From a bacterium (GTDB lineage: Bacteria > CAIWAD01), in contig JAUXWS010000058.1 of NCBI GenBank assembly GCA_030685015.1, positions 1 to 62,538 of the forward strand: a DNA stretch of 62,538 nucleotides, in the 5' to 3' direction. Position 1 is the first letter of the stretch; each line of letters starts with the position of its first letter. The notes below the pieces were generated by a model that saw only the letters and a list, made by a program, of their open reading frames with translations, did no database searches and was not told where the DNA came from. Below, one piece after another: positions 2,411-31,607 of the stretch. Made by a program: the position numbers and the translations under genes.

Positions 2411-3781
2411 TCACACTTTGATCCGCCGCTTGACCTTCGGCCTGGGCGCGCGGCGTGGTTTGAGCTCCGGCTCTTCCACCGGGCGTTTGTAGGCCTGGAG
2501 CTTGGGGTTGGGCATGGTCTCGATGAGTGGCGTGATCGCCTCTTGCAGTTCCTTCCAGGCCGTGGCGGTCAGCCGGCCCTGGGCGTCCTTCATGACCGAG
2601 TCGAACTCCGTCTTCGAAATGCGACCGATGCGCCGGAGGACCTGGGCGACGGTGCGGTTGTAGGCGTGTGCGAGCAGGCTGGCCACCTTATGCGGGTCGA
2701 GGAAGGTGGTCTCGTTGGCCGGCGTCGTGCGGAAGAGATGCGTGGGCGTCTCGATCTGCTCGTTTCCGATCAAGTGGATCTTCATGAGGTCGGCCAGCTC
2801 TTCCTTGCGGCCGTAGAGGATCTTGGCGACGCTGGACAGGCGGTCGTATTCGACGGCGATGGCGGAGAGGTCCATCGGTTCGATGTGGGCCTGGGGCAGG
2901 CCGCGTGCGACGACCTCGCGCCAGAGGCTGCAGCGGATCTTGTGGTCGCAGTAGCCGCAGTACTTGTTGAGCTGGGGCTCGAAGCACGTGGAGCGCTCGC
3001 ACCTGCGCACCAGCGTGACGATCTGGTGGAGAGCGAGGCTCAAGTCGGACGGGGTGCGCCTGGTCCGTTGGATGGTTCGGTGCCGGAGCATGATGAAGTC
3101 GAAGTCGACGGGCGTGTCGGGTGTGATGGCGAGGGCCTCGGACTCGCGCACGGCGATCTCGTAGATGGACGACTGCAGGGACTGCCTGAGTTCGTCCTTG
3201 GTGTAGAGCATGCGGTTGGTTTTGTAGTCGCGGATCTTCACGACGCCTTCGGGCGTGACCTCCAAGCGGTCGATGAAGCCGACAAGCAGGATGTCGCCGT
3301 CGGGCTCTTCGAGCACGAGTTCGAAGGGCCACTCGAGTCCGATGATCTGGTCGGCGTAGAAGTCGCCGGCGGCGAGGTATTCGACGAGGATGGCCTGGGC
3401 GTCCTGGAGGAGCTGGCCGCTGGCCTGCGGGTGTTCCAGGAAGGCCTGGGAGAGGCTTTCGAAGAAGAGCTTCTGCTGGTACATGATCCGGCCCTTGTGC
3501 CTGGCCTTGTGGAGAACCTGGCCAGCGAGTTCCAGCGTGCGGTGACACAGGTTGCCGAGGAGAGCAGGGGACATGGGGTCGGGCAGGGGCAGGACGTTGT
3601 CGGCACCGTAGATCTGCGGATCCAGGTATCTGGCCTTGTAGGCGAGTGGGCACCTGGCGTAGGTGTCGAGGCGCGAGAACGACCAGTGCTCGTTGTGGAC
3701 AATGAAGCCCTCGGGAATGGCGGGCTCCAAGAGGGGCGTGTCCTTACGGCACATTGTGTCGAGGCTGCAGGGGCTAAGCAT
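2411..3781 (-). CDS. PD-(D/E)XK nuclease, RecB/Cas4/AddB-like, with Fe-S cysteines
   Basis: 456 residues from the ATG at 3781, preceded by AAGGA; the longer open frame upstream is non-coding palindromic DNA. RecB-family nuclease signatures are in order: NLCH (His80), GFIDR (Asp171) and DYKT (Asp185, Lys187). Cys44 (YARCP) plus C275-x2-C278-x5-C284 matches the four-cysteine iron-sulfur arrangement of Cas4 and AddB nucleases. The C-terminal 80 residues are basic (...KRRIKV). Expected to be a DNA exonuclease acting in phage recombination or end processing together with the helicases and SMC-like ATPase of the same element. No cas genes or CRISPR repeats are nearby, so it is not called Cas4. Confidence 0.85.
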   Translation of the reverse strand: MLSPCSLDTMCRKDTPLLEPAIPEGFIVHNEHWSFSRLDTYARCPLAYKARYLDPQIYGADNVLPLPDPMSPALLGNLCHRTLELAGQVLHKARHKGRIMYQQKLFFESLSQAFLEHPQASGQLLQDAQAILVEYLAAGDFYADQIIGLEWPFELVLEEPDGDILLVGFIDRLEVTPEGVVKIRDYKTNRMLYTKDELRQSLQSSIYEIAVRESEALAITPDTPVDFDFIMLRHRTIQRTRRTPSDLSLALHQIVTLVRRCERSTCFEPQLNKYCGYCDHKIRCSLWREVVARGLPQAHIEPMDLSAIAVEYDRLSSVAKILYGRKEELADLMKIHLIGNEQIETPTHLFRTTPANETTFLDPHKVASLLAHAYNRTVAQVLRRIGRISKTEFDSVMKDAQGRLTATAWKELQEAITPLIETMPNPKLQAYKRPVEEPELKPRRAPRPKVKRRIKV

Positions 3782-8914: not shown

Positions 8915-9529
8915 CTACCTGTCCCTTTCGGCCAGAAGCCCGATCGCCAGCTCCAAAGCACGGGTGGTCATGTGGCGCTCGTGAGGCGTTGGCCAGCGGG
9001 CGTGAATGAACCGGCCAGGAGTCAGCGCTTGCAGGCGCGCGATGCCCGCCGCCAGGTCCTCCACGCGCACCTCCATGAGCAATTGCAGCCGCACCGGAAG
9101 CGGCTGCAGGGAACTCGCCAGGGCCAGGACCTGGCGGGCGGATTTGATCCGGTGGCCAACCTTGGCCGGCGGGGAGGCCCGCACCTGCTCCAGGATGGAC
9201 TCGGCCTCTCGCTCAAGTTGCGCGGCCTCTTCCATCGCCTGAGCTTGGCAGAACGCCCGGCGCAGGGCATTCCTGGCGCTGATGCGGTCCGCGCGGCCAC
9301 GGTCCTCCCCGAACACTAGAGTCTCGCGCCGCTGCAGCGCGCCACGTTCCCGGGTCAGGAAGTAGGCTCCGCGGATGTCACGCATTGAATAGGGCGCCAA
9401 TCGCTGCAGCTTCTCATTCATGGACAGGCCGCGGCGATCCAGGAGATGCAGGATCTCCCAGGCTTCCGGGGTCGCGAAGAACAGGGGCTGCGCGCCCCCC
9501 GGCCAGCGATCGATGGCGTCAACCCTCAT
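8915..9529 (-). CDS. Hypothetical phage protein
   Basis: 204 residues. The ATG at 9529 overlaps the end of the SMC-like ATPase gene by 11 bases, so the two are translated together. The N-terminus (EAWEILHLLDRRGLSMNEKL) looks like a small helical or winged-helix fold; the rest is helical with many Arg/Glu pairs. As with SbcC/SbcD or RecF/RecR pairs, a gene overlapping an SMC-like ATPase may encode its partner, but no nuclease motif is visible. Confidence 0.55.
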   Translation of the reverse strand: MRVDAIDRWPGGAQPLFFATPEAWEILHLLDRRGLSMNEKLQRLAPYSMRDIRGAYFLTRERGALQRRETLVFGEDRGRADRISARNALRRAFCQAQAMEEAAQLEREAESILEQVRASPPAKVGHRIKSARQVLALASSLQPLPVRLQLLMEVRVEDLAAGIARLQALTPGRFIHARWPTPHERHMTTRALELAIGLLAERDR

Positions 9530-10910
9530 CGTCGTCCGCGGGGTCGGGTTCGGGCGTCAGGTCTGCAGTCTCGCGGGGATCGCTGCCCGCTCCAGCGACG
9601 CCGCCGTCCACGATGTGGATCCCGATCTCCTGGCTGGTGGCCAGCTCGAAGAGAACCATGAGGTCCTGCTCGGTCGCCCAGGCCTTCACGCGCTCGCGCG
9701 TTCGCTCCGTCATCATCGAGGCCTCGCGCAGGGCCAGGAACTTGAGCTTGGGATGCATGGCCGCGCCCATGGCCAGCGAGACCTCCAGGCGCTCGGCGTC
9801 GCTGGCCTGCGCAAAGGGCTTCCCGCGGTAGAGGATGGTGCCGTCCTCGGTGATGGCCAGACCGTCGATGGGCAGCTTGGCGCTGAGCAGCACCTGGGAG
9901 ATCTCGTCGTTCACCGCGTCGATGCTGGTGGTCAGGGTTTCGCTCTCGCCCTGCAGGCGCGTGACCTCGGCCTCCGTTTCCCGGTACTTCCTGGCCTCGC
10001 GGGCCAGCTCGTTGTCGGCCTCTGCCGTAGTCAGCTTGGCCCGCAGGGCCTCCAGGCCTGACGGCTGCAGGGCATCCACGAGCAGCTTTTTCTCCTTGCC
10101 CTGCGCCACCAGGCTGGTCACACGTTCCCGCGCGGCCGTGAGGGCAATCTCCAGGCGAGCAACCTCGGCCTTGGCCTCGGCATGTTCCTGGTAGAGATCA
10201 TGCAGCGCCTGGCGCGTGGCGGCACCCGCGTCCTCCACCAGCCGCGCGGCGTCCATCTGGCGGGTCAGCTCCGTCAGGCTGACTTCCTCGGGGACACTTG
10301 AGGCCGGCATGTCCAGGGCGTCCAGGCGCAACTGGGCGGCTTTCAGGTCGCGGTTGACGTCCGTCCGCTGATCGTAGACCCCCTGGCGCCGGGTCTTCAG
10401 CGCATCGATGGGCTCCTTCACGCCGGCCAGGTCGATCATGACCTTGCTCTGGTGCTCGGCCTTCATGCGCACAAACTCGCTGGGGTCGAAGCACAGGGTG
10501 TGGTAGAAGGCGTCGAGGATGGCCTGGGGGCTCGGGAAGCTCCCTTTGTCCGGGGTCCAGATCTTCAGGCCCCAGCCGCCCTCGGCCGTGACCGTCCGCG
10601 TCACACGGATGCGCCGCGGGCTGTTCGAGCGGGCGTCGTCCGCCGGCGCCAAGTCCAGCACGATGGTGGCCTTCTCGGCGCCCTCGTGCACGGGCTCGCC
10701 CGGCGTGACCTTGGCGCCGCCCAGGGCCGTCCAGATGGCCTGGATGACACTGGTCTTGCCCTGACCATTCTCGCCGGAGAGATCGACGGCGTGGGCCGCC
10801 GGGTCGAAAGCAATCCGCACGGCCTTCAGGCGCATGAAGTCCTCGGCCTCAAGCCCGACGATGCGGTAGCTGTCCGCCAGCTGGTGGGCCGGCTTGGTGG
10901 TCTTCGCCAT
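9519..10910 (-). CDS. SMC/RecF/SbcC-like ATPase
   Basis: 463 residues. Walker A is at residues 46-53 (GENGQGKTS) after a RecF/AAA_23-like N-terminus (IVGLEAEDFMRLKAVRIAFD). Residues 170-340 form a coiled coil. The C-terminal part, from about 370, contains ASDAERLEVSLAMG, which takes the place of the ABC signature, and LKFLALREASMM as a degenerate Walker B. At under 500 residues the coiled coil is short compared with SbcC. The tail is acidic (DPADDDEG). Probable role: DNA end sensing or recombination control with the RecB-like nuclease. Starts 18 bases after the stop of the upstream AAA+ gene. Confidence 0.75.
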   Translation of the reverse strand: MAKTTKPAHQLADSYRIVGLEAEDFMRLKAVRIAFDPAAHAVDLSGENGQGKTSVIQAIWTALGGAKVTPGEPVHEGAEKATIVLDLAPADDARSNSPRRIRVTRTVTAEGGWGLKIWTPDKGSFPSPQAILDAFYHTLCFDPSEFVRMKAEHQSKVMIDLAGVKEPIDALKTRRQGVYDQRTDVNRDLKAAQLRLDALDMPASSVPEEVSLTELTRQMDAARLVEDAGAATRQALHDLYQEHAEAKAEVARLEIALTAARERVTSLVAQGKEKKLLVDALQPSGLEALRAKLTTAEADNELAREARKYRETEAEVTRLQGESETLTTSIDAVNDEISQVLLSAKLPIDGLAITEDGTILYRGKPFAQASDAERLEVSLAMGAAMHPKLKFLALREASMMTERTRERVKAWATEQDLMVLFELATSQEIGIHIVDGGVAGAGSDPRETADLTPEPDPADDDEG

Positions 10911-10928: not shown

Positions 10929-12452
10929 TCAGAAGGGGAGTGGTTCGTCGTCGCTGATGTTGGTCTGGGTGGGCCTTCCTAGCGGCACAGGCGGCTGTGT
11001 GGAGGCTGCTGCCGCTGGCTTGGCATCCTGGCCCACGTCCTCCTCTTCCTGGCCTTGGAGGCGCCGCAAAGCCTCGTTCAGGGTTGCTTCGAGCAGGCGG
11101 AACGCCCGCACACGCTTCCCACCATCCGTGGGGCGGCTGATGTCGCTCTCCGTGATGACGTGGTGGGTCTTCAGCGTGTTGGTCAGGCGGTTGGTGGTCA
11201 GCTTCTTTTCGAAGGGCCACGCGCCATCATCGACGAGCTCGGCGTGAATGGCCTCGGCCAGCTTGTGTGAGAAAAAGACGTGGGGGGCCATCAGGATCTC
11301 GTAGATCTTCCGGTCGTCACCCGTGATCAGGTTCAGCAGCGTCTGCAGGATGAGGATGTCCAGGTTCTCGCGGCGGGCCCGCTCGTCCCGCTCTTTCTCC
11401 TTTTCCTTCTGGGTCTTGAGAAGGATGTCGACCAGGGACTGCGTTTCGTCCAGATTGGATTCTCGGTCCACCTGATGGGCGATGGTGATCAGGGGGAGCC
11501 AGATCTCCCGCTCCCGGCTGATGAGGTCCGGCAGCGCACCCATGAGGTCCACGGTGTAGATCTGGTGCAGCACGAGGAACTTGGTCAGGGCCCAGCAGTG
11601 AAGGCGGTTCCTGAGCGCAATCGTGCGCGCCTCGATCTCCGCCGCGTTCTGGGCGTAGTCCTTGAGCCGCACGTCCTTTTGCTTCTTCAGGCTGTGGATG
11701 ACAACGCAGCGGTTGCCGAAGACATGGTCGATCTCGTTGATGCTGCCCAGGCACTTGGGTCCAAAGGTCTCGAACATCTCCACCATGCCCGTGTCCATGT
11801 TCGTGCGGCTGGCGCTCGCCCCCTTCTTGTAGGCGTCGTTCAACAGCAGGCGGATGGTGGCCTCCATGGTCCCGGGCTTGGGGTGGCTCAGCTTCTCCGC
11901 CTCGTCCAGGATGACGGTGGAGCGGTTGGCGTGCACCAAACGGAAGAGGGCCGGCTCGGTGATGCTGGTGGTCTTGCGGGCGTTGAAGGCCAGGGCGGCG
12001 ATGAAGTCCAGCGAGAGGGACTTGCCCGATCCCGTGATGCCGTTGAAGTGCAGGTAGCCCAGCGTGCCGAAGAGCGGGTAGACGTAGGTCATCATGATCC
12101 AAAGGGCGATGATGTCGAACTCGTGGTCTGCCGGGTACCAAATGAACTCCTTCAAGAGGGCCCGGATGTCTTGGAAGAGCTCGGCGGTATTGGGCGTGTT
12201 GGCGGCCGGGTCCTTCAGGAAGCGCTCGACGCTGAAGGGGATGGCGGATGGGTGGCTCCACCGTGGCAAGTCCGGATCGGGGAAACGCGTGAGTTTGGGG
12301 TCATTCACTTGACGATTTTTGTACGGGACCAGCACCACGTGGATGCCGTCATCCGTGATCGACGATTCGATCACGTAGCGCTCTTTGATGCGCAATCCGT
12401 TGTCGTCGACGTCCATCCATAGACCGATGTTGGCGGTGGGAAAATTGCTCAT
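10929..12452 (-). CDS. AAA+ ATPase, probable replicative helicase or loader
   Basis: 507 residues from the ATG at 12452, with AAAGGA upstream. A 130-residue N-terminal part precedes Walker A (GITGSGKS, 138-145) and Walker B (VILDEAE, 180-186). A conserved Asn/Arg stretch follows (SINEIDHVFGNRC), then a helical region of about 200 residues with many Lys/Glu. The C-terminus ends in SDDEPLPF, very close to the acidic tip of bacterial SSB (DDxPF). Directly downstream of the primase gene, so it probably functions with it at the element's replication fork. A family name is not certain. Confidence 0.7.
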   Translation of the reverse strand: MSNFPTANIGLWMDVDDNGLRIKERYVIESSITDDGIHVVLVPYKNRQVNDPKLTRFPDPDLPRWSHPSAIPFSVERFLKDPAANTPNTAELFQDIRALLKEFIWYPADHEFDIIALWIMMTYVYPLFGTLGYLHFNGITGSGKSLSLDFIAALAFNARKTTSITEPALFRLVHANRSTVILDEAEKLSHPKPGTMEATIRLLLNDAYKKGASASRTNMDTGMVEMFETFGPKCLGSINEIDHVFGNRCVVIHSLKKQKDVRLKDYAQNAAEIEARTIALRNRLHCWALTKFLVLHQIYTVDLMGALPDLISREREIWLPLITIAHQVDRESNLDETQSLVDILLKTQKEKEKERDERARRENLDILILQTLLNLITGDDRKIYEILMAPHVFFSHKLAEAIHAELVDDGAWPFEKKLTTNRLTNTLKTHHVITESDISRPTDGGKRVRAFRLLEATLNEALRRLQGQEEEDVGQDAKPAAAASTQPPVPLGRPTQTNISDDEPLPF

Positions 12453-12457
12453 GCTGC

Positions 12458-13849
12458 TTAAGTCCTTTCCGTTGTGAAGGAGAGAGAGGCGATGTAGGGG
12501 AGTGTGTCTTCGAAGATGAGCTTGCTTGCGGCGCTCGTTTCCATTTGCACAACGGCTTCCTGTGCCCGCGCCCGCTCTGCCTGAGTCGACTTGATCTCTT
12601 TCAGCGACGCGCGAAGGCTGCCCATCTGGAGTCCGCAACGCTTCTTCAGCAGATCCAGATAGACGGCCTGGCGCAGCTCAGACAGGGCTGTCATGGACTC
12701 CAGGACATCCTGCACCGCAGCCTGATCCTCGCGCCGCATTTTCCCGCCGGCCTTTACGTCGGGCAGCTGTTCGATCTGGTATTCGATCAGGTCCGGCGCG
12801 CCATCCAGCAGGGCCTGGAATTCCTCCTTCGTGCCGCCGGCGCGCGCCCAGTCGTTGATGTCCTTCTCGCCCGGCATGTGCAGGATGCGCACCTCGCCGT
12901 CCCGGAGGGCGGCCTGGATGGTGCGCGCGGACCTCACCACGCGTCCACGGCCGGCGGCGTCGTTGTCCCAAACGAGGGTGACGTCCTTCAGGTGGGCGAA
13001 GAGGTGGGCGTTCTTGGCGACTTCCAGGCCCAGGTTGCCGACGGCGGGGATGCCCCAGGTGTCCACCTGCAGGGCGTCCGGGATGCCTTCCGCCAGCACC
13101 AGCTTGCGCTCGGGGTTGTGCAGGGCGTCCACGTTCCAGAGGCCCGCGGCCTGGCCGGCAAGGTGGACGAACTTGCGCCTGTCCTCGGAGTCTGGAAGCG
13201 CGCGGAAGGACATGCCCGTGGCGCGGTGGCGTTTGAGCAAGGGGAAGGAGATGCGGGTGTCGCGGAAGAGCAAGCCGCCCCGCTCCGTGCGAAGCCCAGC
13301 CTCTTCGAAGTCGGCCTGATTGAACTCGCCCAGGATGGGATGCGTGGCCCTGACCTGATAGACCTTGGCCAGATTGACAAGCCCGACCACGTGCTCCTTC
13401 AGGAGTTCCACCACGAAGCCACGGCCTTCCAGATAGGCGCGCGCCTGGCGAGCGGGTTCCGTGTCCGCCATGAGCTGGCCGTGCGCGTAGCGCGCCAGGA
13501 CGCTCAGGGTTTCCTCACGCTTGTGCTTGGCCTCCTCGACCGCCCGTTCTTCTTCCGTGGGCGGCGCCAGGTCCAGGTGCATGAGCTCGGCTGCGTAGCG
13601 CACGGCCCCCTTGAAGTCGAGGCCCTTGTCCGCCATGATGAAGTCAATGGGGCTGCCACCACACGGGGTCGTCTGGTGGCTGGGGCACCACCAGGAGTTG
13701 GTCTCGCTGTAAACGATGAACGATCCGTTTTTATCCGCGTGGCCAGGAAGCGGGCAGCGGATGGGCTTTCGTCCCGTGTGATGCGGAACGAGCTTGTCCA
13801 TGGTCAGCTCGCGCTTGATGCGCTCAGCGAGATCTAGGTAGTGCCCCAC
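12458..13849 (-). CDS. DnaG-type DNA primase (CHC2 zinc finger plus TOPRIM)
   Basis: 463 residues from a GTG at 13849, preceded by AAGGAG that overlaps the stop of the upstream gene. The CHC2 zinc finger spans residues 32-63 (RCPLPGH, WWCPSHQ, CGGSPIDF). The TOPRIM domain carries the catalytic glutamate in LAEGIPDAL (E254) and the metal pair in VWDNDAAG (D295, D297). It would lay RNA primers for replication of the element. The C-terminal 100 residues are helical and replace the usual helicase-binding domain. It lies between the helicase/resolvase fusion and the AAA+ ATPase. Confidence 0.9.
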   Translation of the reverse strand: MGHYLDLAERIKRELTMDKLVPHHTGRKPIRCPLPGHADKNGSFIVYSETNSWWCPSHQTTPCGGSPIDFIMADKGLDFKGAVRYAAELMHLDLAPPTEEERAVEEAKHKREETLSVLARYAHGQLMADTEPARQARAYLEGRGFVVELLKEHVVGLVNLAKVYQVRATHPILGEFNQADFEEAGLRTERGGLLFRDTRISFPLLKRHRATGMSFRALPDSEDRRKFVHLAGQAAGLWNVDALHNPERKLVLAEGIPDALQVDTWGIPAVGNLGLEVAKNAHLFAHLKDVTLVWDNDAAGRGRVVRSARTIQAALRDGEVRILHMPGEKDINDWARAGGTKEEFQALLDGAPDLIEYQIEQLPDVKAGGKMRREDQAAVQDVLESMTALSELRQAVYLDLLKKRCGLQMGSLRASLKEIKSTQAERARAQEAVVQMETSAASKLIFEDTLPYIASLSFTTERT

Positions 13850-13858: not shown

Positions 13859-15910
13859 TTATCGCATGGCCGCCATGAAGAGGTCTTCGTGACGCGCGGC
13901 CAGGATGGCCGCCGCGGCGTCGTACTGGTGCTCGCTTCGGTCCTTGGTGGCGTCCCAGCCTGCCCCGGCCCACTGGCGGCCGTCATGGGTCAGAACAGCT
14001 CGCACCACGTCGGCCACACGGGCCTTCGTCGCAGTCAGGCCGCCGCCCACGCGCTCTTTGATTTCGCCCGGCAAGAGCCAGATGGTGGGCACTTCGTGAT
14101 AGACGCGCGCCGCCACCAGCAGGGCTTTGGCATAGGCCAGGCCCTTCAAGGCCGCGGCGCTCTGCGCGCCACTGGACGGCGTCTCGCAGCAGAGGATGAC
14201 CGGCGGGTAAGCCAGGAGGAAGTCGCGGATCCCGGTGGCCAGGATCTCCAGTCGGCGGCCATCGTCGTCGGCCTTGCGCAGGCCGAGTTTCTTGTCGCTG
14301 GGCTGGGTCGTGAGGGTGGTCATGGCCACAGGCCACCAGGTGGCCAGGTCGACGGCCACCAGGGCGAAGTGCGTGAAGGACGGGTCCATGCCGACGGCGG
14401 TGCGGGCGGGCCCGCCGGGCCGAACGATGATGGCGGGGGCTGCCAGGATGGTCGCCGGCGCCGCTTCGAGTTGCTGCGCCTGGCTGGCCGGCTGGGTCTT
14501 CACGATCGTCGCCATGAGCTTCTTGTAGGCGGCCTTCCTGCTGGCATACTGGCGCAGCAGGGGCTTCGTGTCGTTGTCCACGTTCGTGACGGCGCTGTCG
14601 ATGAAGTCAAAGACCTCGCCTCGGATCTTGCCTGGCGACGCGCGCATCACGCGCCCCACGCGCTGCTCAACGCGTCCCTCGGCCTTGGCGGGGAAGGTCA
14701 GCAGCAGGGTGTTGAGCTCGGGGATGTTGAGGCCCTCGTCGGCGACGGTCGAGGCGAAGAGCACGCGCACATGTCCGGACCGAACCGCGTGCCGGATCAG
14801 GCGCCGGGTGTCCTTCTTCACCTTCCCGGCCAGCAGCTCGCCAACGATGCCTCGTGCCTTTGCCGCCTGGAAAAGGGGCACCAGGTGGTCCTCCACGCGG
14901 CCGGAAAGCACCAGAATCGCGCGCTCCTCGTCCTGGTGGAGGGCTTCCAGCGTGTCCAGCACCAGGGCACGGCGCGCCTCGTCCTTGGCCAGGGCGTCGG
15001 TCAGCGCCTGCCAGTCGCCGGCGCCGCGGTAGGGAAACGTGAAGGCCGTGTGGACCTCGTGGACGATGGCTGGAACCAGGTAGCCGCCTTGTAGCAGGTC
15101 CGCCTGGTGGGTCTCATGGAGGATGGGGCCAAAGGTGTGGTAGAGCTTCTGGGTCAGCCCATCCTCGCGCTCGGGCGTGGCCGTCAGCGCCAAACGCCAC
15201 TTGGCCGGGCAGGCATTCACGACGCGGTCGAAGGTGCTGGCTGGGGAGTGGTGGCCCTCGTCCAGGATGAGGCACCCGTACTGCCCCAGCTCGCGCGTGA
15301 GGGCGCCGGTCTCCAGTCGGGTCAAGGTTTGCACCGTGGCCACGGTGATGGGCGGGCTGGTCCGCAGGTCCAGCGCGCCTGGCAGGAACCCGAAATGCTC
15401 CTCGATCTCCTCCCGCCACTGTTCCAGCAGATCCAGCGTGTGGACGAGGATCAGCGTGCGCTGCCCAATCTCGGCCAGGGCCGCCAGGGCCGTGAAGGTC
15501 TTGCCGCCGCCGGCGGGGATGACCACCACGCCCTGCTGGCGCTGGACCATGGCGGTCTTGGCCGCCACCTGGTAGGTCCGCAGCGGGGGATGGAAGGGAG
15601 GGATGGCCGCCTCCCACGTCGCCCGGTGGTCTTGGGCGCCCGGCCAGGGGACCAGCACCTCCTTCAGAAGGGCGATCGCTCCGCGTGGGGCACACCAGTG
15701 GTGATGCGGGTCAACGTGGAAGCCCTCCAGCCGCTTGGGGATCTCCCGCCAGCGGCCGTCCACTTTCTCTTTGGGCACTTGGATCCCGCGCTTCTTGGCC
15801 GCCACGTAGGCGGGGTTTGCGTAGGACAGCGCCCTTTCCAGTTGCTCGCGGGCGCGGGCCGGCAGCTCGGCCAGAGGGATGCGAATCACGCTGGCGACGT
15901 GGATGCTCAT
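13859..15910 (-). CDS. SF2 helicase fused to RuvC-like Holliday-junction resolvase
   Basis: 683 residues in one uninterrupted frame. The N-terminal 450 residues are an SF2 helicase of the XPB/UvsW type: motif I AGGGKT (133-138), motif II DEGH (217-220), motif III TATPER (243-248), motif VI QRVGRVMR. After an Ala/Pro-rich linker (about 470-502) the last 180 residues have the RuvC fold signature: GMDPS (Asp509), ILCCETP (Glu576), and EHQYDAAAAILAA (Glu660, Asp664). The two activities would couple branch migration to junction cutting, normally done by RuvAB and RuvC. The start codon overlaps the DinG gene stop by four bases. Confidence 0.85.
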   Translation of the reverse strand: MSIHVASVIRIPLAELPARAREQLERALSYANPAYVAAKKRGIQVPKEKVDGRWREIPKRLEGFHVDPHHHWCAPRGAIALLKEVLVPWPGAQDHRATWEAAIPPFHPPLRTYQVAAKTAMVQRQQGVVVIPAGGGKTFTALAALAEIGQRTLILVHTLDLLEQWREEIEEHFGFLPGALDLRTSPPITVATVQTLTRLETGALTRELGQYGCLILDEGHHSPASTFDRVVNACPAKWRLALTATPEREDGLTQKLYHTFGPILHETHQADLLQGGYLVPAIVHEVHTAFTFPYRGAGDWQALTDALAKDEARRALVLDTLEALHQDEERAILVLSGRVEDHLVPLFQAAKARGIVGELLAGKVKKDTRRLIRHAVRSGHVRVLFASTVADEGLNIPELNTLLLTFPAKAEGRVEQRVGRVMRASPGKIRGEVFDFIDSAVTNVDNDTKPLLRQYASRKAAYKKLMATIVKTQPASQAQQLEAAPATILAAPAIIVRPGGPARTAVGMDPSFTHFALVAVDLATWWPVAMTTLTTQPSDKKLGLRKADDDGRRLEILATGIRDFLLAYPPVILCCETPSSGAQSAAALKGLAYAKALLVAARVYHEVPTIWLLPGEIKERVGGGLTATKARVADVVRAVLTHDGRQWAGAGWDATKDRSEHQYDAAAAILAARHEDLFMAAMR

Positions 15911-17916
15911 TCGAAGGGGTCCTCGCTGGTGGAGAGGAAGCTCTTGATGGACGCCACCTCGTGGCTCATGCGCCCGCCCGGGATGGCCTTCAGGAACTGG
16001 CGCCCGTACTTCTTGGTGGTGACCCGGCCGTCCAAAAGCAGGACCACGCCGCGGTCATCGTGCCGGCGGATCAGGCGTCCGAAGATTTGCTTCCACGTGA
16101 TCAGGGCGACGGGCAGGCTGTGGTGAAAGAACCAGCCCTTCGCATCGTGCTCGGCGATGTAGTCCATGACGGGATCCGCCGGCGAGGGAAAGGGCAGGCG
16201 GTCGAGGGCGACCAGGGACAAGCTCTCCCCAGGCACATCGATGCCCTGGAAGAAGGTCCTGGTGGCGAAAAGCACGCTGTGCACGTCCTCCTGAAACTGC
16301 TTGATGAGGAGGGTGGAGGGGGCGCTACCCTGGCGTAGGCAGCGGTAGCCGGCCCGCTCGAATTCCGGCGCCACCAGATCATGCGCGGCCCGCATTCCCT
16401 GGCTGGAGGTGAAGAGGAGCAGGGCCCGCCCCTGGGAGAGCAGCACGGCCTCGTGCAAGAGGTTGTGGACGCGGTCCCGGAACTCCGGCGCGTTCGGCTC
16501 GGGCAGGCCGGCCGGAACCACCAACAGGGCCGCCCGGTCGAAGTCAAAGGGGCTGGGCAGGATCACCTGCCGCGTTTCCACGGACAGGCCGATGCGCTCG
16601 CGGATGAAGGAGAAGTCGCTTCGCGTGGTGGTCAACGTGGCGCTGGTGGCGATGAAACTTGACACCCAGGGCAGCAGGGACTGGCGTACGAAGGCCGCGA
16701 TCGAGACCGGCTTGCCGCAGAGCTTCCACGTCTCGCCGGACGCGGACTCCACGCGTTCAGTCCAGTAAACCCACTCCGCGTGTTCCTGCCAGATGAGGGC
16801 CTTGACACGCCTGGCCAGCTGGCAGCATTGCTCTTCCTGGCGCTCCAGCTGCTTGAACTCCTTTGAGTCTTCCAGGTGCTGGCGCCTCAAGGCCTTCAGC
16901 TCGCGCAGAGCGTCGCGTAGGGCGTCCAGGATGGGGCCCTCATCAATCAAGCCCGCTTCCTTGATGCGGCCGCTGCCCGGGGCGCCGTGCGTGAAGCTCA
17001 TCTGCTTGATGGCGCGCGCGAGGTTCTCCGCCGCTTGGTCCAGGGCTTGGAATCCGCTCTGGGACAGGTGTCGCTTGAATCCGCGGAAGCTCCAGCGACC
17101 GATCTGCTCGCCGGCGAAGTCGCTGCCGATGTCCGGGATCTCGTGGGCCTCGTCGCAGATGAGGACATCGAAGGGCGGGACGACGCCGGCATTGCCGGCC
17201 GTGGCCTGCTGGACCATCAGGTGGGCGAAGAGCAGGTGATAATTGCAGACCACCACCTGCGCGTCCTCCGCTTCCGTCACGGCCGCCCGGTGGAAGCAGA
17301 GAAGCTTACAGCCGGCGCACTCGCTGGTGTCGGCCACGGAAAAGTGACGCCAGACGCGCGGGGAAACCCTGAAGGGGATCTCATTGGTGTCGCCCGTTGA
17401 TGTCGTGCCGGCCCAGGCCAGCACCTGGTCGAACTCGTCTTGGTCCTCGTCCGACACGGCGCCGGCGAAGAGCTGGCTCTTGTGCTCGTCGTGGCGGTCC
17501 TTGCATAAAAAGTTCGACCGGCCTTTGAGCAGGGTGAACTGGAACGGCTCGGGCAGGATGCCCGCCAGGAAAGGCAGGTCCTTCTGCACCAGCTGCTCCT
17601 GCAGGGCGATATTGGCCGTGGCGATGAGCACGCGCTGGCCCGTGGCCAGGGCGTGTTGGATGGCGGGCGCACAGTACGCCATGCCTTTCCCAGTCCCCGT
17701 CGGCGCCTCCACCAGCAGGTTGCTGCCGGTCGCCAGTGCCGCGGCCACCTCGCGCGCCATGATGAGCTGGCTCTCGCGTAGCATGTAGCCGGGGAGCTGC
17801 TGGGCCATCAGTCCACCTGGGCCGAAGATCTCGTCCATCGTGAGGGTCGGCTTCGGTTGGGCAGGCGGTGCTGATGCTTCAAGCAAGGCCGAGTAGTCCG
17901 TCGCGTCTTGGGGCAT
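15907..17916 (-). CDS. DinG/XPD-type Fe-S DNA helicase with acidic DPF tip
   Basis: 669 residues. Walker A is APTGTGKG (71-78) and the DEAH box is at 255-258. Four cysteines between them (C138, C200, C203, C207; SECAGCKLLC) form the iron-sulfur cluster site of the XPD/DinG family. Helicase motifs continue to FGRLIRRHDDRG near residue 620. The protein ends STSEDPFE. Likely unwinds forked DNA or R-loops in replication or recombination. Upstream, an unusually strong hairpin separates it from the ssDNA-binding protein gene. Confidence 0.9.
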   Translation of the reverse strand: MPQDATDYSALLEASAPPAQPKPTLTMDEIFGPGGLMAQQLPGYMLRESQLIMAREVAAALATGSNLLVEAPTGTGKGMAYCAPAIQHALATGQRVLIATANIALQEQLVQKDLPFLAGILPEPFQFTLLKGRSNFLCKDRHDEHKSQLFAGAVSDEDQDEFDQVLAWAGTTSTGDTNEIPFRVSPRVWRHFSVADTSECAGCKLLCFHRAAVTEAEDAQVVVCNYHLLFAHLMVQQATAGNAGVVPPFDVLICDEAHEIPDIGSDFAGEQIGRWSFRGFKRHLSQSGFQALDQAAENLARAIKQMSFTHGAPGSGRIKEAGLIDEGPILDALRDALRELKALRRQHLEDSKEFKQLERQEEQCCQLARRVKALIWQEHAEWVYWTERVESASGETWKLCGKPVSIAAFVRQSLLPWVSSFIATSATLTTTRSDFSFIRERIGLSVETRQVILPSPFDFDRAALLVVPAGLPEPNAPEFRDRVHNLLHEAVLLSQGRALLLFTSSQGMRAAHDLVAPEFERAGYRCLRQGSAPSTLLIKQFQEDVHSVLFATRTFFQGIDVPGESLSLVALDRLPFPSPADPVMDYIAEHDAKGWFFHHSLPVALITWKQIFGRLIRRHDDRGVVLLLDGRVTTKKYGRQFLKAIPGGRMSHEVASIKSFLSTSEDPFE

Positions 17917-18008: not shown

Positions 18009-18758
18009 CTAGTTGAAGGGGTCTTCATCGCCCGGCGCGCCGCCACCATCCGCCGCCGCGTGGCGCGCGGCCTCTTCCTCCTGCGTGACCCAGCTCTGGG
18101 CCGCCGCGAGGTGTTTGGCGGGGAGGTCGCGGATCTTGGCGATGGAGAACTTGGCCAGGAAGTCGCCCATCATCTGGCCGCCCTGGGCGTCGCCCAGCGT
18201 GGCCTTCAGCGCCTTGAGGCGGGCGATGAGCGCGTCGCCATCTGTCTGGGTGAGGATGGCCGCGGGCTCGGGCTTGGTGGACTTGGCGCCATCATCGCTG
18301 CCGTCCGACGTCAGGTCGAAGAGGTCCAAGGCGTCGAGCTGGACGCGCAGGGCGGGGGTGATGGTGGCCTCGGGCAAGACAGTGTAGCTCGTGTCCTTGG
18401 CCTTCGTGCCGGTGCGTTCGATCTCGAAGATCTGGCTGTCGACGCCGTACTTGGTGTCCATCTTGGACACCTGCTTGTAGAAGGTCTTCGAGTTCTCCAG
18501 GACCTTCACGGCCTTGAGGATGTAGGCGCCGTTCTTGTTCTCCAGCACGGCCACGTTCATGCTGGTCTTGAGCGTCTTCTCCTTCCCGCAGCCTTCCGTC
18601 CAGGGGTGGTAAGTCGTGCCATCCCAATAGACCTCGCGGATGTGGGGCTCGCCCAGGAAGGCGACCAGGTGCTTGTCACCGTCCTCAAACTTGAGGTAGC
18701 GCCCGCTCTGCAGGTCGTGCTCCTCGTAGCTCTTGTTCATGCCATCGAACCGGCCCAT
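18009..18758 (-). CDS. Probable phage single-stranded DNA-binding protein
   Basis: 249 residues from the ATG at 18758, with AAGGAGG seven bases upstream. The N-terminal half looks like phage ssDNA-binding proteins: aromatic and basic residues in YLKFEDGDKHLVAFL, then EVYWDGTTYHPWTEG. It is followed by a helical Ala/Lys-rich part. The C-terminus is acidic and ends GDEDPFN, comparable to the partner-recruiting tail of SSB and T7 gp2.5. Position between the early small gene and the helicases supports a role in replication. The exact family is not certain. Confidence 0.6.
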   Translation of the reverse strand: MGRFDGMNKSYEEHDLQSGRYLKFEDGDKHLVAFLGEPHIREVYWDGTTYHPWTEGCGKEKTLKTSMNVAVLENKNGAYILKAVKVLENSKTFYKQVSKMDTKYGVDSQIFEIERTGTKAKDTSYTVLPEATITPALRVQLDALDLFDLTSDGSDDGAKSTKPEPAAILTQTDGDALIARLKALKATLGDAQGGQMMGDFLAKFSIAKIRDLPAKHLAAAQSWVTQEEEAARHAAADGGGAPGDEDPFN

Positions 18759-19864: not shown

Positions 19865-20451
19865 GATGGCTCCAGCGCTGGGTCAGCGCCGGCGCGTAGC
19901 CGCCAGGAGGCATGATCAAGACCCGGGCGCTGGTGCGCGCCGGGCCGACAGAGTTGTGGGTGTGGACAGAGTCCGCCCAGGAGACCCACAGACATGGATC
20001 ACCCGACCCGTGCATTTCACGGGAATGGATTGGGCATGAGGAAGCCCGGGCGGACAAGTCCCTGCTTAAGCCTGGTAATCAGCCAGGCCTTGACTGTCGG
20101 TCCGGGTTAGAAGAGGATCAGCAGAACGGATCGGGAGAGGGCGCAATGATGAACGCGCCGATGATCGGCGGGGGGCTGGAATCTATTCGGGCAAGACATG
20201 ATTGGCTCCAGGCGTGCGGCTCGTGTGAGGCTACGGGAGCCAAGATACGAGGGGGTGAAACACGAACCGGAGGCCCCGTTGATGGACGGGGGCTTCCGAG
20301 GCAAGTCTTCTGCAAACCGTGCTCGGTATGGCCTACAGCCCGCTCCAGCAGCGGCTGCGCGGTTTTCGAGAAGCCAATTTTCAATGTGATCAAGTGCTTA
20401 GGCGAACGCTGCGGCTTTGTACGTCAGCACTGAAGGAGAAGTTGGCGAGGA
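19865..20451. other. Non-coding region between sigma gene and cassette array
   Basis: About 590 bases. No frame looks like a gene on either strand; open frames are short and lack ribosome sites. It should contain the promoter of the sigma-led module on the minus strand, but I cannot point to -35/-10 boxes. Its right end passes into a degenerate attC edge where the expected TAACGGTGG core is replaced by unrelated bases, so this may be the scar where the cassette array joins the phage module. Confidence 0.4.
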
Positions 20452-20572
20452 CATTGGCTCCGCAGCATCAGCCGCGACGCGCCTGGCGCGACGCTTGTCC
20501 TTTCCTACCGACGTTTCTTATCCCTTCCGACTGCAAGCGCCGTGACAGGCGCAAAGTCGGCTGCAAGCAGTG
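20452..20572 (-). repeat. attC site, left portion, split by the IS
   Basis: Shares the CAGCCGCGACGCG, GCAAGCGCCGTGACAGG and GTCGGCTGCAAGCAGTG blocks of the other attC sites. The outer core at the left is lost (degenerate). At 20572 the site stops at AGTG, and the remainder (TTAGATC) resumes at 22181 on the other side of the IS. Together they form the attC of the cassette carrying the HEPN gene at 22201-23475. Confidence 0.8.
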
Positions 20573-20647
20573 ATCTTCATAGAGGTCTCCTCCCTGCGCG
20601 CATCACCCGATACGCGTGGGGTATCCCAACCCAGAAAGGAGGAGACC

Positions 20648-21691
20648 ATGCGATTCTACCCAGGCCAGCACACGTTCACCTGCGGAGTCGACTTGCACGC
20701 CAGCACCATGTATCTCTGCATGCTGGACTCGGCCGGTGAAATCCGCTTGCACCAGAATCTGCCCGCCGACCCGGCGGCCTTCCTGGACGCCATCGCGCCC
20801 TTTCGTGACGACCTCGTCGTCGGCGCCGAGTGCATGTTCACATGGTACTGGCTGGCGGATCTCTGCCACGCCGAAGGCATCGCCTTTGTTCTCGGCCACG
20901 CCCTCTACATGAAAGCCATCCACGGTGCCAAAGCCAAGAACGACAAGCTGGACGCCAGGAAACTCGCCGTCCTCTTGAGAAGCGGGGCCTTTCCCATGGC
21001 CTACGCCTACCCCGCCGGCATGCGCTCCACGCGCGATCTCTTGCGCCGCCGCACCAACCTGGTCCGCTTCCGCGCCGACCTCTTGGCCCATGTCGCCAAC
21101 ACCAACAGCCAGGCCAACCTCTCGGCCCTGGCCTTGAGCGGCAGACGCCGCGCCGCCGCGCCTCAGGTGATCGAGCGCCTTCACGATCCCATGACCCGCC
21201 GCGCCGTGGAGCTGGACATTGACATCATCCAATTCCTGGACCAGCAGATCACCACCTTGGAGCGCGAACTTCTGGTCAAGGCGCAGGCCGATCAACCCCG
21301 CACGCTGGACCTCTTGCGCACCGTCCCCGGCATCGGTCCCATCCTGGCCATGACCATCATGTACGAGATCCATGACCTGACCCGCTTTCCCCGCGTCCAG
21401 GACTTCGTCTCTTATGCCCGGCTCGTGGCCTGTGCCCATGAATCCGGCGGAAAGAGGAGCGGGTCCGGCGGCCGCAAGATCGGCAACCCCTTCTTGAAGT
21501 GGGCCTTCTCCGAAGCCGCCGTCAGCCAGCTGCGCCTCGATGCCGGAATCCGCACCTACCGAAACCGCTTGGTCAAGAAGCATGGCAAGGGCAAGTCCCT
21601 GTCCATCCTGGCCCATCGAATTGGAAGGACCGTCTACCACATGTTGAAACGCAGCGAAACCTTCGATCGGGCCCGCTTCCTGGCGGCGTGA
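20648..21691 (+). CDS. IS110-family DEDD transposase
   Basis: 347 residues from the ATG at 20648 with an excellent ribosome site (AAAGGAGGAG). N-terminal RuvC-like DEDD domain: GVDLH (Asp near 15), GAECMFTWY (Glu), KNDKLDARK (Asp pair). The central helical region is followed by the Tnp_20 domain with VPGIGPILAMTI and the serine-containing ESGGKRSGSGGRKIGNP, which carries the catalytic Ser of the family. Acts with an RNA guide in characterised family members. Intact, with no frameshift, so the element may be active. Confidence 0.92.
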   Translation: MRFYPGQHTFTCGVDLHASTMYLCMLDSAGEIRLHQNLPADPAAFLDAIAPFRDDLVVGAECMFTWYWLADLCHAEGIAFVLGHALYMKAIHGAKAKNDKLDARKLAVLLRSGAFPMAYAYPAGMRSTRDLLRRRTNLVRFRADLLAHVANTNSQANLSALALSGRRRAAAPQVIERLHDPMTRRAVELDIDIIQFLDQQITTLERELLVKAQADQPRTLDLLRTVPGIGPILAMTIMYEIHDLTRFPRVQDFVSYARLVACAHESGGKRSGSGGRKIGNPFLKWAFSEAAVSQLRLDAGIRTYRNRLVKKHGKGKSLSILAHRIGRTVYHMLKRSETFDRARFLAA

Positions 21692-22164
21692 TCGATCTCG
21701 GGCGGCCCAGCCCGACGTCTAACTGGACGACAAGGGGCGAACCGGCGACGACCGCCGATCCGATTCCTGGAGAACCGGATCGACAACCCTGGGGCCACGA
21801 CCCCGACCGCGGTCTTCGGACACAAGGCCCCGAGCCCCAGCAGTGATTGGCGGGCCACCCGATCCAAAGCCGGAAGGGATTGAGGAAAGGATCCTGCCCC
21901 ATCCCCGAGCCTGCAACAAACTGGACGGCAACCGCCGAGCCCAAGCAGTGACAAGGCCGGTACGTGGGCACCGATGGATTTCTAGGGCGCCAAGAGCACG
22001 GCTCTTGCCGGATCGGCACTGCCGATTCGTGACCCTCAATAGGTGTTTGGTGCAGGATTCCCACCCTGTGCCTGCCAATGAAACCAAGTCGGGATTCGCC
22101 TCAATCCCTTCGCATCAAAGAACCGAAGAAAAGTCGGAAGGGGCCCTTGCGCGCCCTTGACTCT
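21692..22164 (+). ncRNA. Candidate bridge RNA region of the IS
   Basis: 470 non-coding bases between the transposase stop and the right inverted repeat, the position where IS1111-type elements encode their guide RNA. The region contains related blocks ending CGAGCCCcAGCAGTGA (to 21846) and CGAGCCCaAGCAGTGA (to 21951). Their AGCAGTGAT and AAGCAGTGA parts match the left insertion junction (attC AAGCAGTG joined to the IS start ATC). Near 21718 it also has TCTAAC, complementary to the right flank GTTAGA. These are plausible guide segments; folding and boundaries were not computed. Confidence 0.5.
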
Positions 22165-22200
22165 GGAGACCTCATAAGTGTTAGATCTTTTTGAAATGTG

Positions 22201-23475
22201 TCATTCATATTTTTTCGCATTTAATTGAAGGCAGAATGCTTCATGCAAAACATAAACAGTTTCATCATTTATAACCGCCAAAAGTGCGTAGATAGCGAGC
22301 CTTTCTAACTCTAAATGATCTGAACGTTCAATGCTTGTGTAGGCGGCGTGCACTATCCTAGATCGTAAGTCATACAATCTTCTCGCTGATTTGGCAATTT
22401 GCATACGCTGATCTTTGTTATTGCCTATTAATAATGCCAATCTATCTGAAAAGCGTTCCACGGTAGATTCACTTCCGTCCGGTATCAACAATCTCTCAAT
22501 TGCAATGGCACAACCGAGAAAGGCTTGATCCAGTCTAGGAGCAACTACTGATCTTCCGAGGGAAATAGCGGCACTTAGAGTTGCCGATTCTAGAGAATTC
22601 CAGGTTTTTCTTACTCTCGATAGTGGAGCAACTAATTTGCTAATATTTATAACTTTACACAATCTAGCGTAAACATCCTTGTCAAAAACAAATGGCCGCT
22701 CAAATCCATGCAATTCGTTTGTCGTATTGAAGGACCCACTTGGTGTACCAATTGAAATTGTCCATGACCGATTTGAACTAACCTCTTCAGGTAAGCCGAA
22801 AATCCTCTTCTCAGAGTAATTATAGAACATTGATGAAAATGCACGAACAGCATTGATTATATATTCGACCATTATTTTAGAGTGATTAATGCACTGCTGC
22901 TTGTGAGCTCGCACAACCACCCTGGCGTAGCAATTGCCGTTCCCTATTGCCATATGTATGCATCTTAGCCCTAGTCCTCTTTGAGATTCCTGATCGTCAG
23001 CCTCTCCAGGGAATGCATAACTCATCACGCATCTTGTTGATTCAGCTAAAGCCATCTCTAGCGGCAAGAAACGAATGGCACCTATCTCAAATGCACCTTT
23101 CATGTCCAGATTTATTATGGGGTGAAATACGATCCAGTCTCCAATATCTTCTTTGACTCTTTTGATAATGCTCGTTTTTATCTCTTCACGATCAATTGTG
23201 CGATTATCACTAAAATACTTAGCGATCACCAATTTTTTCACTTCGTTTTCTATTGCTTCTTGTCCCACAAGTTCTGCGAGGTCTTCATCTTTTAATAGCT
23301 CATGAACAGCTTCATTAAACAAGATACATCCATTGTCCCTGATTGTAATTGATCCGTGGTCTTGAGAAGAAATAACTCGCAAATTGGTTTTCGGATCGGA
23401 CAAGTTCATGCCCGGTTCAGCAAACTGTTGAGACTCCGTTAGTGCTCTTGCGACTTTACTCAGATCGTAGCTCAT
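22201..23475 (-). CDS. Cassette gene: ApeA-like HEPN protein
   Basis: 424 residues from the ATG at 23475. The C-terminal third has the HEPN ribonuclease motif R-x4-H (RSRIVHAAY, residues 371-376), preceded by CAIAIERLLIPDGSESTVER and FSDRLALLIG, the pattern of ApeA-like HEPN domains. The N-terminal 250 residues have no recognised domain. HEPN proteins of this kind usually cut RNA and serve in abortive infection. AT-rich relative to the host; its downstream attC is the one interrupted by the IS. Confidence 0.7.
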   Translation of the reverse strand: MSYDLSKVARALTESQQFAEPGMNLSDPKTNLRVISSQDHGSITIRDNGCILFNEAVHELLKDEDLAELVGQEAIENEVKKLVIAKYFSDNRTIDREEIKTSIIKRVKEDIGDWIVFHPIINLDMKGAFEIGAIRFLPLEMALAESTRCVMSYAFPGEADDQESQRGLGLRCIHMAIGNGNCYARVVVRAHKQQCINHSKIMVEYIINAVRAFSSMFYNYSEKRIFGLPEEVSSNRSWTISIGTPSGSFNTTNELHGFERPFVFDKDVYARLCKVINISKLVAPLSRVRKTWNSLESATLSAAISLGRSVVAPRLDQAFLGCAIAIERLLIPDGSESTVERFSDRLALLIGNNKDQRMQIAKSARRLYDLRSRIVHAAYTSIERSDHLELERLAIYALLAVINDETVYVLHEAFCLQLNAKKYE

Positions 23476-23497
23476 GAGCTTTCCGTAGTTTTGATAG

Positions 23498-23623
23498 ACC
23501 TAACGGTGGCTTCAGCCGCGACGCGTTTGGCGCGGCGCTTGCCTTCTCCCACCAGCGCTTCGTTATCCCTTCCGACTGCAAGCGCCGTGACAGGCGCAAA
23601 GTCGGCTGCAAGCAGTGTTAGGC
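23498..23623 (-). repeat. attC site
   Basis: 126 bp bounded by ACCTAAC and GTTAGGC, both fitting the integron core-site consensus (RYYYAAC/GTTRRRY), with long imperfect complementary arms including GGCTTCAGCCGCGAC and GTCGGCTGCAAGC. Orientation follows the minus-strand gene upstream (TIR gene), whose TAA stop lies inside the core. Confidence 0.9.
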
Positions 23624-24547: not shown

Positions 24548-24588
24548 CGTGAGCTCCCTGATGGTGATAATTGACTCAGCCTAACGGT

Positions 24589-24704
24589 GGCACCAGCCGC
24601 GACGCGCCTGGCGCGGCGCTTGCCTGTTCCCCTCTGACGTTCCATCAAGTCCAGCTCGCAAGCGCCGTGACCAAGCGCAAAGTCGGCTGCAAGCAATGTT
24701 AGCC
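24589..24704 (-). repeat. attC site
   Basis: 116 bp from GCCTAAC to GTTAGCC with the same inner blocks as its neighbours (CAGCCGCGACGCGCC, AAAGTCGGCTGCAAGCAATG). Follows the 137-residue cassette gene, whose TAA stop is in the core. Confidence 0.9.
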
Positions 24705-25112: not shown

Positions 25113-25181
25113 GATGGCTCCACAAGTTCACTGTCCATCCGAAGTTTTTCCGAATCATTTGTGTCAGAGGGTTTCTGATAT

Positions 25182-25306
25182 GGCTAGCGGTGGCTTCAGC
25201 CGCGACGCGCCTGGCGCGGCGCTTGCCTTTCTCCTACCGACGTTTGCTTCAATTCCGACTGCAAGCGCCGTGACAGGCGCAAAGTCGGCTGCAAGCGATG
25301 TTAGGT
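25182..25306 (-). repeat. attC site
   Basis: 125 bp. The left core reads GGCTAGC, one base away from the consensus TAAC, and the right core GTTAGGT is intact. Inner arms are as in the other sites. Belongs to the cassette at 25313-26002. Confidence 0.85.
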
Positions 25307-25312
25307 TGCATG

Positions 25313-26002: not shown

Positions 26003-26033
26003 GGATCCTCCGAGAGTGTAATTGCTCATTGCA

Positions 26034-26158: not shown

Positions 26159-26162
26159 GCTT

Positions 26163-26927: not shown

Positions 26928-26929
26928 GC

Positions 26930-27052: not shown

Positions 27053-27067
27053 AAGTGATGATCATCC

Positions 27068-30443: not shown

Positions 30444-31607
30444 CTACTTCGTCTCGGACTTCAAGATCTCTTCCATGGCCCGCTCCAGACTCACCCGCAC
30501 GGGATCCAGGGCCAGCCTGGCGTAGATCTCGGTCGTGGTCTTGGACTCATGCCCCAGCGTTTTTTGGATGATCTCCAGCGGTGACCCTGTGTCGATCTGG
30601 AAGGAGGCGAGGCTGCGCCGCAGGTCGTGCATGTGCAGGCCTTGAAGTCCGGCCCTCTCGCAGATCCGCATCCAGCCGATCTTGGGATCCATCATGTGCG
30701 GCACGCCGCGGCGCCCTGGGAAGACGTAGAGGCCCTGGGTGTTGGCAAGACGGGCGCGCAGGATCTCCACCACGCGTTCGGTCAGGACCACGTCCAGCTC
30801 CTTGCTGTTCTTCGAGTCCCCGGCTGGCACCACCCAGAGCCCTCGGTCCAGTGAGACATCCTGCCAACGCATCGTGAGCACGTTGGACTTGCGCGCGCCC
30901 GTGAAGAAGGCAATGAGCACGAAATCGCGGATGTCCTCATTCGGCTCATCACGTACGGCCTGGAAAAAGGCCGGGAGCTCCTCGGGCATCAGTCGCCTGG
31001 ACCGACGGTCCTCTCGGTAGAACGTGATGGCGTTCGCCGGGTTGGGAATGTCCAGCTCGTGCTCGCGGATGGAGCGGTTGATGATGGCGCGCAAGAAGGC
31101 GACCACGCGGTTGGCAAGGTGGTGGCCGTTGTGCTCGCCAACCTCCTGATGCAGCTCGACGACCTCGCGCCTGCGGACCTCTCGCATGGCGCGCTTGCCG
31201 GCCCAAGGCTTCAAGTGCTTCATCCACAGCCGCTCGTATTGCGCGATGGAATTCGCCTTGCGGTGGTGCTCCAGGTAGCGGTGGTATTCCTCGTAGGCAT
31301 CTTCAAGGGTGTGCGCAGCAACGCGCACCGCCCTCTTCTTCGGGGCCCCGACCACTTCCCCAGCCGCCATCTTCAAGAGGGTCTCAGCGGCCATCCGCCT
31401 AGCCGCTGGGATCGGGATTTCATTTGCGGATCCGATGCGAACGAAGTTCCGTTTCCCTTCCCGTGTCTTGACGACGTAGAAGGACTTCCCGCCGCTCTTG
31501 GTGATCATCAGCGCAAGCAATGGGACCTGCTCATCATAGATCCACTCCCGCGGGAGGTCCGTTTTGAGCTCTTCCAGGGCCTTTTGGGTAAACCGAATTC
31601 GCCGCAC
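30444..31607 (-). CDS. int: Tyrosine site-specific integrase (P4/phage type)
   Basis: 387 residues from a GTG at 31607 behind GGGGGA; a TTG at 31634 is the alternative start. The N-terminal 85 residues are an arm-binding domain (QVPLLALMITKSGGKSFYVV, KTREGKRNFVRIG), then a core-binding SAM-like domain. The catalytic part has GARKSNVLTMRW (Arg), HMHDLRRSLAS (His-x-x-Arg), GHESKTTTEIYAR (His and Tyr nucleophile). It lacks the extra patch typical of integron IntI. It sits 220 bases from the tRNA-Asn attachment site and should integrate this element there. Confidence 0.9.
   Translation of the reverse strand: MRRIRFTQKALEELKTDLPREWIYDEQVPLLALMITKSGGKSFYVVKTREGKRNFVRIGSANEIPIPAARRMAAETLLKMAAGEVVGAPKKRAVRVAAHTLEDAYEEYHRYLEHHRKANSIAQYERLWMKHLKPWAGKRAMREVRRREVVELHQEVGEHNGHHLANRVVAFLRAIINRSIREHELDIPNPANAITFYREDRRSRRLMPEELPAFFQAVRDEPNEDIRDFVLIAFFTGARKSNVLTMRWQDVSLDRGLWVVPAGDSKNSKELDVVLTERVVEILRARLANTQGLYVFPGRRGVPHMMDPKIGWMRICERAGLQGLHMHDLRRSLASFQIDTGSPLEIIQKTLGHESKTTTEIYARLALDPVRVSLERAMEEILKSETK

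Follow-up and report, generated by a model that had tools for sequence, protein, structure and literature searches.

A helicase–RuvC fusion gene in prophages of a little-studied bacterial lineage: a candidate single-chain enzyme for branched DNA

Background

Moving a DNA junction and cutting it are two jobs normally done by separate proteins, and the coupling of branch migration to junction cutting has mostly been studied in multi-protein complexes. The locus described here raises the question whether prophages of a little-studied bacterial lineage have joined both jobs in one polypeptide. The gene lies at 13859-15910 of the window, i.e. the whole stretch of 62,538 nucleotides that was analysed, which is the complete contig C58 of the 3.6-Mb MAG G000. 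An earlier note, made from the sequence alone, had read it as a helicase fused to a RuvC-like resolvase. With motor and nuclease in one chain, their coupling, the order of the steps and the stoichiometry would be accessible to measurement in a single purified protein and its point mutants.

Results and discussion

Frame and motifs of the fused gene

The gene (13859..15910, minus strand; protein P0001) is a single ATG-initiated frame of 683 residues with no internal stop. It was delimited from the frame itself, Pfam and PHROGs, and complete copies were found at loci L002, L008, L033 and L046. The plus-strand translation of the same interval is interrupted by a stop, and codon-usage gene calling selects the same 683-codon frame, within a series of minus-strand genes. 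The earlier note had described an uninterrupted frame of this length at these coordinates, which we recovered and found open in further loci; it had given no strand, and the gene is now placed on the minus strand.

Residues 1-105 (15596..15910, minus strand, as for all parts of the gene) form an N-terminal domain common to standalone members of the motor's helicase family: a helicase profile built from 11 sequences includes it from the start of the profile onwards, and plasmid homologues align from residue 1. Residues 106-472 (14495..15595) form the SF2 motor, assigned to the XPB/UvsW/D10 type by Pfam, PHROGs, PDB sequence search and Foldseek. They are followed by a variable linker at residues 473-503 (14402..14494), predicted to be disordered from its low identity and low pLDDT, and by a RuvC-type nuclease domain at residues 504-683 (13862..14401), recognised by PHROGs, PDB profile, Foldseek and alignment with phage RuvC proteins. 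The motor carries a Walker A motif (P132-AGGGKT138; GGGKT at residues 134-138, 15497..15511), a Walker B DEGH at residues 217-220 (15251..15262), both placed by alignment, LTATPER at 242-248, motif V VADEGLNIP at 389-397 and motif VI EQRVGRVMR at 415-423.

The motor domain

Over residues 110-451, Pfam detected ResIII (5.7e-23), Helicase_C (8.9e-12) and ERCC3_RAD25_C (1.1e-5), and PHROGs matched the motor to the DNA helicase family phrog_16 (1.3e-65). In a sequence search of the PDB the nearest protein was archaeal XPB (XPBII) at 5e-31, T4 UvsW being a weaker match at 1.4e-5. Helicases of T5-like phages align with the fused protein at about 1e-25. XPB chains also rank first in Foldseek with the full-length AlphaFold model; both models made are weak (mean pLDDT 57 for the full length and 54 for the C-terminal domain). 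XPB and UvsW are the closest characterised homologues of the T5 helicase D10 (PMC5180179), matching our PDB search, and both T4 UvsW and T5 D10 move Holliday junctions in vitro (PMC4872236, PMC5180179). Judged by its sequence, the motor is an SF2 helicase of the XPB/UvsW/T5-D10 type. The earlier assignment to the XPB/UvsW type was thus borne out, all motifs being present and XPB/UvsW coming best in the PDB search.

The nuclease domain and its catalytic residues

The C-terminal part was matched by PHROGs to phrog_159, the RuvC-like Holliday junction resolvases, at 1.5e-20 over residues 445-677. The Pfam RuvC model matched residues 548-641 at 0.022, under the Pfam cut-off, and reports no fused copies in the G000 genome, so that automated annotation probably misses the nuclease. 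In the PDB search with the whole protein, E. coli RuvC matched residues 546-646 at 0.001. A profile of the six available C-terminal domains retrieved two PDB entries only, both of them RuvC (1hjr at 1e-5 and 6s16 at 0.7). Consistently, the top twelve Foldseek matches of the C-terminal domain model (pLDDT 54) are all RuvC chains (4ep4, 1.4e-5), with yeast Ydc2 and RuvX ranking below them. RuvC is therefore the best relative both by sequence profile and by predicted fold, as the earlier note had claimed. No other RNase-H family fitted better, the PDB profile finding RuvC only and RuvC leading in Foldseek; in view of these twelve matches, a non-RuvC RNase-H family was rejected.

The predicted catalytic residues are Asp509 (in GMDPS, 14384..14386), invariant also in the aligned phage and cellular RuvC proteins, Glu576 (in CCETP, 14183..14185), invariant in the alignment, and the motif Glu660-His661-x-x-Asp664 (EHQ[YF]D, 13919..13933), whose E, H and D are invariant across fused and standalone phage RuvC. 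All five residues are unchanged in the six sequences (6/6) that cover the domain, and they align with those of standalone phage RuvC. Known catalytic sets are D7/E66/D138/D141 in E. coli, D7/E70/H143/D146 in Thermus and D8/E71/D145/D149 in phage bIL67, whose RuvC resolves junctions in vivo (PMC3864405). The third catalytic position may be either E660 or H661, since the former has the spacing of bIL67 D145/D149 and the latter that of Thermus H143/D146. From the set first proposed, Asp509, Glu576 and Asp664 stand, while Glu660 is possible with His661 as an equal candidate. The domain is thus predicted to be of RuvC type, with the four-residue catalytic pattern (D, E, D/H, D) present.

Origin of the nuclease

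The window protein was recovered at 3e-15 with a profile built from four phage resolvases (Meara, Cyrano, PB119 and P184); conversely, a profile of the fused domains matches these four proteins at 9e-14 to 1.3e-9. Among the cellular RuvC proteins tested, most gave no match with E under 1 to this second profile, and the strongest, an Ignavibacteria RuvC (4.2e-8), ranks below all four phage proteins. In a maximum-likelihood tree the fused and phage domains are split from cellular RuvC with support 100/99, a split to be read with care because long branches meet there, and the fused domains cluster together (96/96). Capture of a cellular RuvC was rejected as the source of the nuclease, the domain grouping with phage RuvC in both tree and profiles.

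Copies of the fusion and selection on its parts

The fusion was found at six loci, in two MAGs of two genera: five copies are complete, and a sixth is partial but extends across the junction. The other copies are 63-80% identical to that of the window and contain no stops. In G000, contig C100 (locus L002) carries a complete fusion, 80% identical, and the C22 copy (77%) starts within the motor and continues through linker and nuclease. End fragments are present at the edges of contigs C23, C93 and C7, and C22 and C23 may be two pieces of one locus. The MAG G003 (JAUIFJ01, 'bacterium isolate 8_bin.8'), of the same family as G000, carries complete fusions in three loci (63-64%). As the same fusion stays open at several loci of two MAGs, it is neither a frameshift nor a chimera; the possibility of a frameshift between two separate genes, which the earlier note had left to be checked, is refuted by these complete open copies.

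Rates of substitution were calculated per domain for most copy pairs with the Nei-Gojobori method and Jukes-Cantor correction. Between the window and C100 copies, dN and dS were 0.135 and 0.49 for the motor, 0.107 and 0.51 for the nuclease, and 0.407 and 0.70 for the linker. Purifying selection acts on both domains and is relaxed in the linker. Between lineages 19-58% of linker positions are identical, compared with 66-86% in the RuvC part; at the level of genera the values are 19-29% for the linker and 66-68% for the nuclease. In the full-length AlphaFold model the linker has a pLDDT of about 24-39, and the segment 473-514 lies below 50. Two constrained domains joined by a free linker are the pattern that would be expected of a working fusion.

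Distribution of the fusion

Searching 386 genomes with the fused-domain alignment gave matches in G000 and G003 only. With the full-length alignment, G003 was the sole fused MAG, the other matches being unfused helicases and one cellular RuvC; phrog_159, which separates fusions poorly, matched mostly cellular RuvC in a search of 386 genomes. The single-protein scans of IMG/VR and of GTDB genomes gave no matches, nor did the scans with the RuvC-domain alignment alone or with the helicase of G002. Using tblastn with the whole protein, 3,267 of 50,697 phage records and 1,181 of 72,556 plasmid records were matched; none covers 80% of the query and, among the matches listed, the motor alone is aligned. 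The C-terminal domain alone matched 21 phage records, and the four inspected (4/4) hold it as a separate gene.

No fusion was found among the 159 nearest viral RuvC ORFs of IMG/VR, whose longest stop-to-stop frame is 270 aa, and no D10-like helicase was detected in the flanks of these loci (up to 6 kb a side) with a helicase profile that does work, since it found 64 ORFs among other loci. The fusion is likewise absent from every helicase relative examined outside the G000/G003 lineage. Full-length relatives of the motor mostly stop near the motor end there, and the longer ones of Neorhizobium and Acinetobacter have N-terminal extensions. One motor relative (G033, L050:7557-10118) is fused to an N-terminal TOTE-type archaeo-eukaryotic primase domain.

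The same fusion, sought in other phages as the earlier note had suggested, was thus recovered in prophages of G003 and at other G000 loci but nowhere else in the collections searched. That note had called the architecture possibly undescribed, and we agree within the limits of the collections and open-access papers searched: both modules are known, and their covalent combination was found in none of these collections or papers outside this lineage, although an earlier mention is possible.

Neighbourhoods of unfused helicase relatives

Neighbourhoods of unfused relatives were chosen by similarity of the helicase and not by content, and part of the neighbour proteins were scanned. RusA lies near the motor relative of G002 C48, from the genus of the host (1.6e-12), and immediately after the helicase of Mycobacterium phage Agent47 (1.4e-36); a RusA-like gene lies two genes from that of vB_BpsS-140 (2.6e-4). 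A resolvase of the Hjc/RecU type was found near the helicase of IMG/VR locus L082, and a resolvase gene overlaps that of Bacillus phage vB_BboS-125 (phrog_843, 4.6e-22). In Summit a RuvC lies about 3 kb downstream of the helicase. No recognised resolvase was found within two genes of the helicase in G002 C39, Kamaji, Alicyclobacillus, Parageobacillus, Neorhizobium and Acinetobacter. Counted without a control for chance adjacency, the resolvases near the helicase in 5/12 neighbourhoods are suggestive only. The phages of the G000/G003 lineage have joined to a phage RuvC a D10/UvsW-type motor that elsewhere sometimes sits beside several unrelated resolvases.

Prophage setting

Upstream of the fusion, a DinG/XPD-like SF2 helicase is encoded at 15907..17838 (minus strand; Helicase_C_2 2.9e-32, phrog_2488 2e-53). 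Its stop and the start of the fusion overlap by 4 nt (ATGA), so that the two genes are probably translationally coupled. Pfam and PHROGs further identified a Toprim/zinc-ribbon DNA primase (12458..13849, minus strand), which is followed by a P-loop protein (10929..12452, minus strand), and an SbcC/AAA_23-like ATPase (phrog_1499; 9519..10910, minus strand). Domain searches added a PD-(D/E)XK exonuclease (phrog_69; 2411..3781, minus strand), and a possible ssDNA-binding protein gave a weak match (phrog_1192, 0.0077; 18009..18758, minus strand). The tyrosine recombinase, or integrase, of the prophage lies at 30444..31607 (minus strand); its homologues in C100, C7 and G003 C63 are close to the module. 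Primase, P-loop protein, SbcC-like ATPase, exonuclease and recombinase of C58 all have one orientation. The C100 contig that carries the fusion also encodes terminase, portal, tape measure, tail sheath and baseplate. Together, the replication and integrase genes of C58 and the phage structural genes of C100 identify the element as a prophage; the phage probably has a contractile tail. Host genes for RuvC and RuvB lie near each other on C95.

Proposed function and competing explanations

We propose, with a probability of roughly 0.64, that the gene encodes a single-chain prophage enzyme which would combine branch migration with cutting of junctions or forks, for the processing of phage replication and recombination intermediates. 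The XPB/UvsW/D10-type motor would bind branched DNA (a Holliday junction, a regressed fork or a D-loop) and spend ATP to shift the branch point. The RuvC-type domain, on a flexible tether of about 30-45 residues that would couple it physically to the motor, would cleave strands at the branch point, using metal ions bound by Asp509, Glu576, Glu660/His661 and Asp664. RuvC acts as a dimer, so that two fused chains would put two motors around one junction, in a smaller version of the RuvAB-RuvC machinery; the AlphaFold models are of too low confidence to predict how the domains pack or dimerise. The enzyme may serve recombination-dependent replication and the debranching of phage DNA ahead of packaging, independently of the host ruvB and ruvC.

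A more specific form of this proposal, which we advance tentatively and at somewhat less than even odds, is a single-chain resolvasome: dimerised RuvC domains would hold the junction, two tethered SF2 motors would drive it to a cleavable sequence and the motor would gate cutting. If true, it would be an independent solution to the RuvABC task on an unrelated motor. The cellular RuvAB-RuvC system likewise joins branch migration to RuvC-type cutting, but in three proteins and with an AAA+ ring motor that works with RuvA; neither RuvA nor the AAA+ RuvB motor has a counterpart in the fusion, whose SF2 motor is unrelated. T5 D10 and T4 UvsW are phage-encoded and of the same SF2 motor family, but without a nuclease domain, full-length unfused relatives ending near the motor end. 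The standalone phage RuvC proteins (Schitoviridae, e.g. P184 and PB119; Meara; Cyrano; phrog_159) consist of the same domain, with DPS near the start and EHxxDA near the end, but are encoded by separate ORFs.

Judged from sequence alone, the substrate may be a Holliday junction, a fork or a bubble. The protein could be, like archaeal Hef, a fork- or branch-specific nuclease-translocase, with a motor that acts on stalled forks by regression or unwinding and a RuvC domain that introduces nicks at three-way junctions, Holliday junctions being minor substrates. For the bIL67 RuvC, forks are bound and cleaved with an efficiency close to that for X junctions (PMC3864405); forks and Y junctions are also substrates of UvsW and D10 (PMC4872236, PMC5180179), and Hef unites active helicase and structure-specific nuclease domains of one chain in fork processing, but with a FANCM-type helicase and an XPF-type nuclease where the fusion has a RuvC-type one (PMC3905845). 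We consider this reading unlikely, although a serious one: Holliday junction resolution is the defining activity of the nuclease family, and several other phages have, next to the helicase, a gene annotated or predicted as a resolvase.

Bubbles or lesions would be the substrate of an excision-like repair machine, in which XPB and a tethered nuclease act as in archaeal XPB-Bax1, together with the adjacent XPD/DinG-like helicase. Archaeal XPB, XPB-Bax1 complexes included, is the nearest solved relative of the motor, and the XPD/DinG-like gene overlaps the fusion by 4 nt, as described above. Yet XPB-Bax1, an excision repair system, is made of two polypeptides, and the Bax1 nuclease domain resembles VRR-Nuc and not RNase-H/RuvC (PMC7293015); the gene moreover sits in a phage replication operon and the T5 relative of its motor is a branch-migration enzyme, which makes this explanation improbable.

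We give still less credence to an attack enzyme that would cut host replication forks to stop the host, with repair of phage DNA as a secondary role. Highly expressed bIL67 RuvC does break host chromosomes at forks (PMC3864405), but the gene belongs to the conserved replication module of an integrated prophage, and a motor would be superfluous if forks were merely nicked. Finally, an assembly chimera, or a sequencing error joining two genes, is barely credible: gene boundaries do vary nearby, where the primase/P-loop pair is split in the window and fused elsewhere, but C100 and three G003 loci carry the fusion intact and C22 carries it across the junction, all free of stops and 63-80% identical to the window copy, and selection maintains both domains.

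Other features of the prophages

The primase and P-loop genes (10929-13849) are two genes in the window, a TAA being followed by an ATG a few bases later; in C100, C22 and C76 they form one protein of 959-991 aa. The DinG/XPD-like helicase (15907-17838) matches the PADLOC model of the type IV CRISPR-associated DinG at 1.4e-114, and no CRISPR genes were recognised among the window proteins scanned. In C100, a gene called from its sequence as DNA methyltransferase-like (L002:3561-4796) lies between the DinG-like helicase and the fusion.

The G000 bin holds at least 4 divergent copies of one prophage replication module (C58, C100, C22/C23, C93 and C7); either the genome is unusually rich in related prophages or several strains were binned together. 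About 10 kb of the window between the replication module and the integrase (20100-30250) has no counterpart in the prophages of C100 and C7, where about 0.9-2.5 kb separates the two. This block encodes an IS110 transposase (20648-21691), a CAP12/Pycsar-type TIR protein (23618-24547), a DUF3644-like gene (26163-27065) and an OLD/GajA-like ATPase (27840-29903), and is probably a swappable site for anti-phage cargo.
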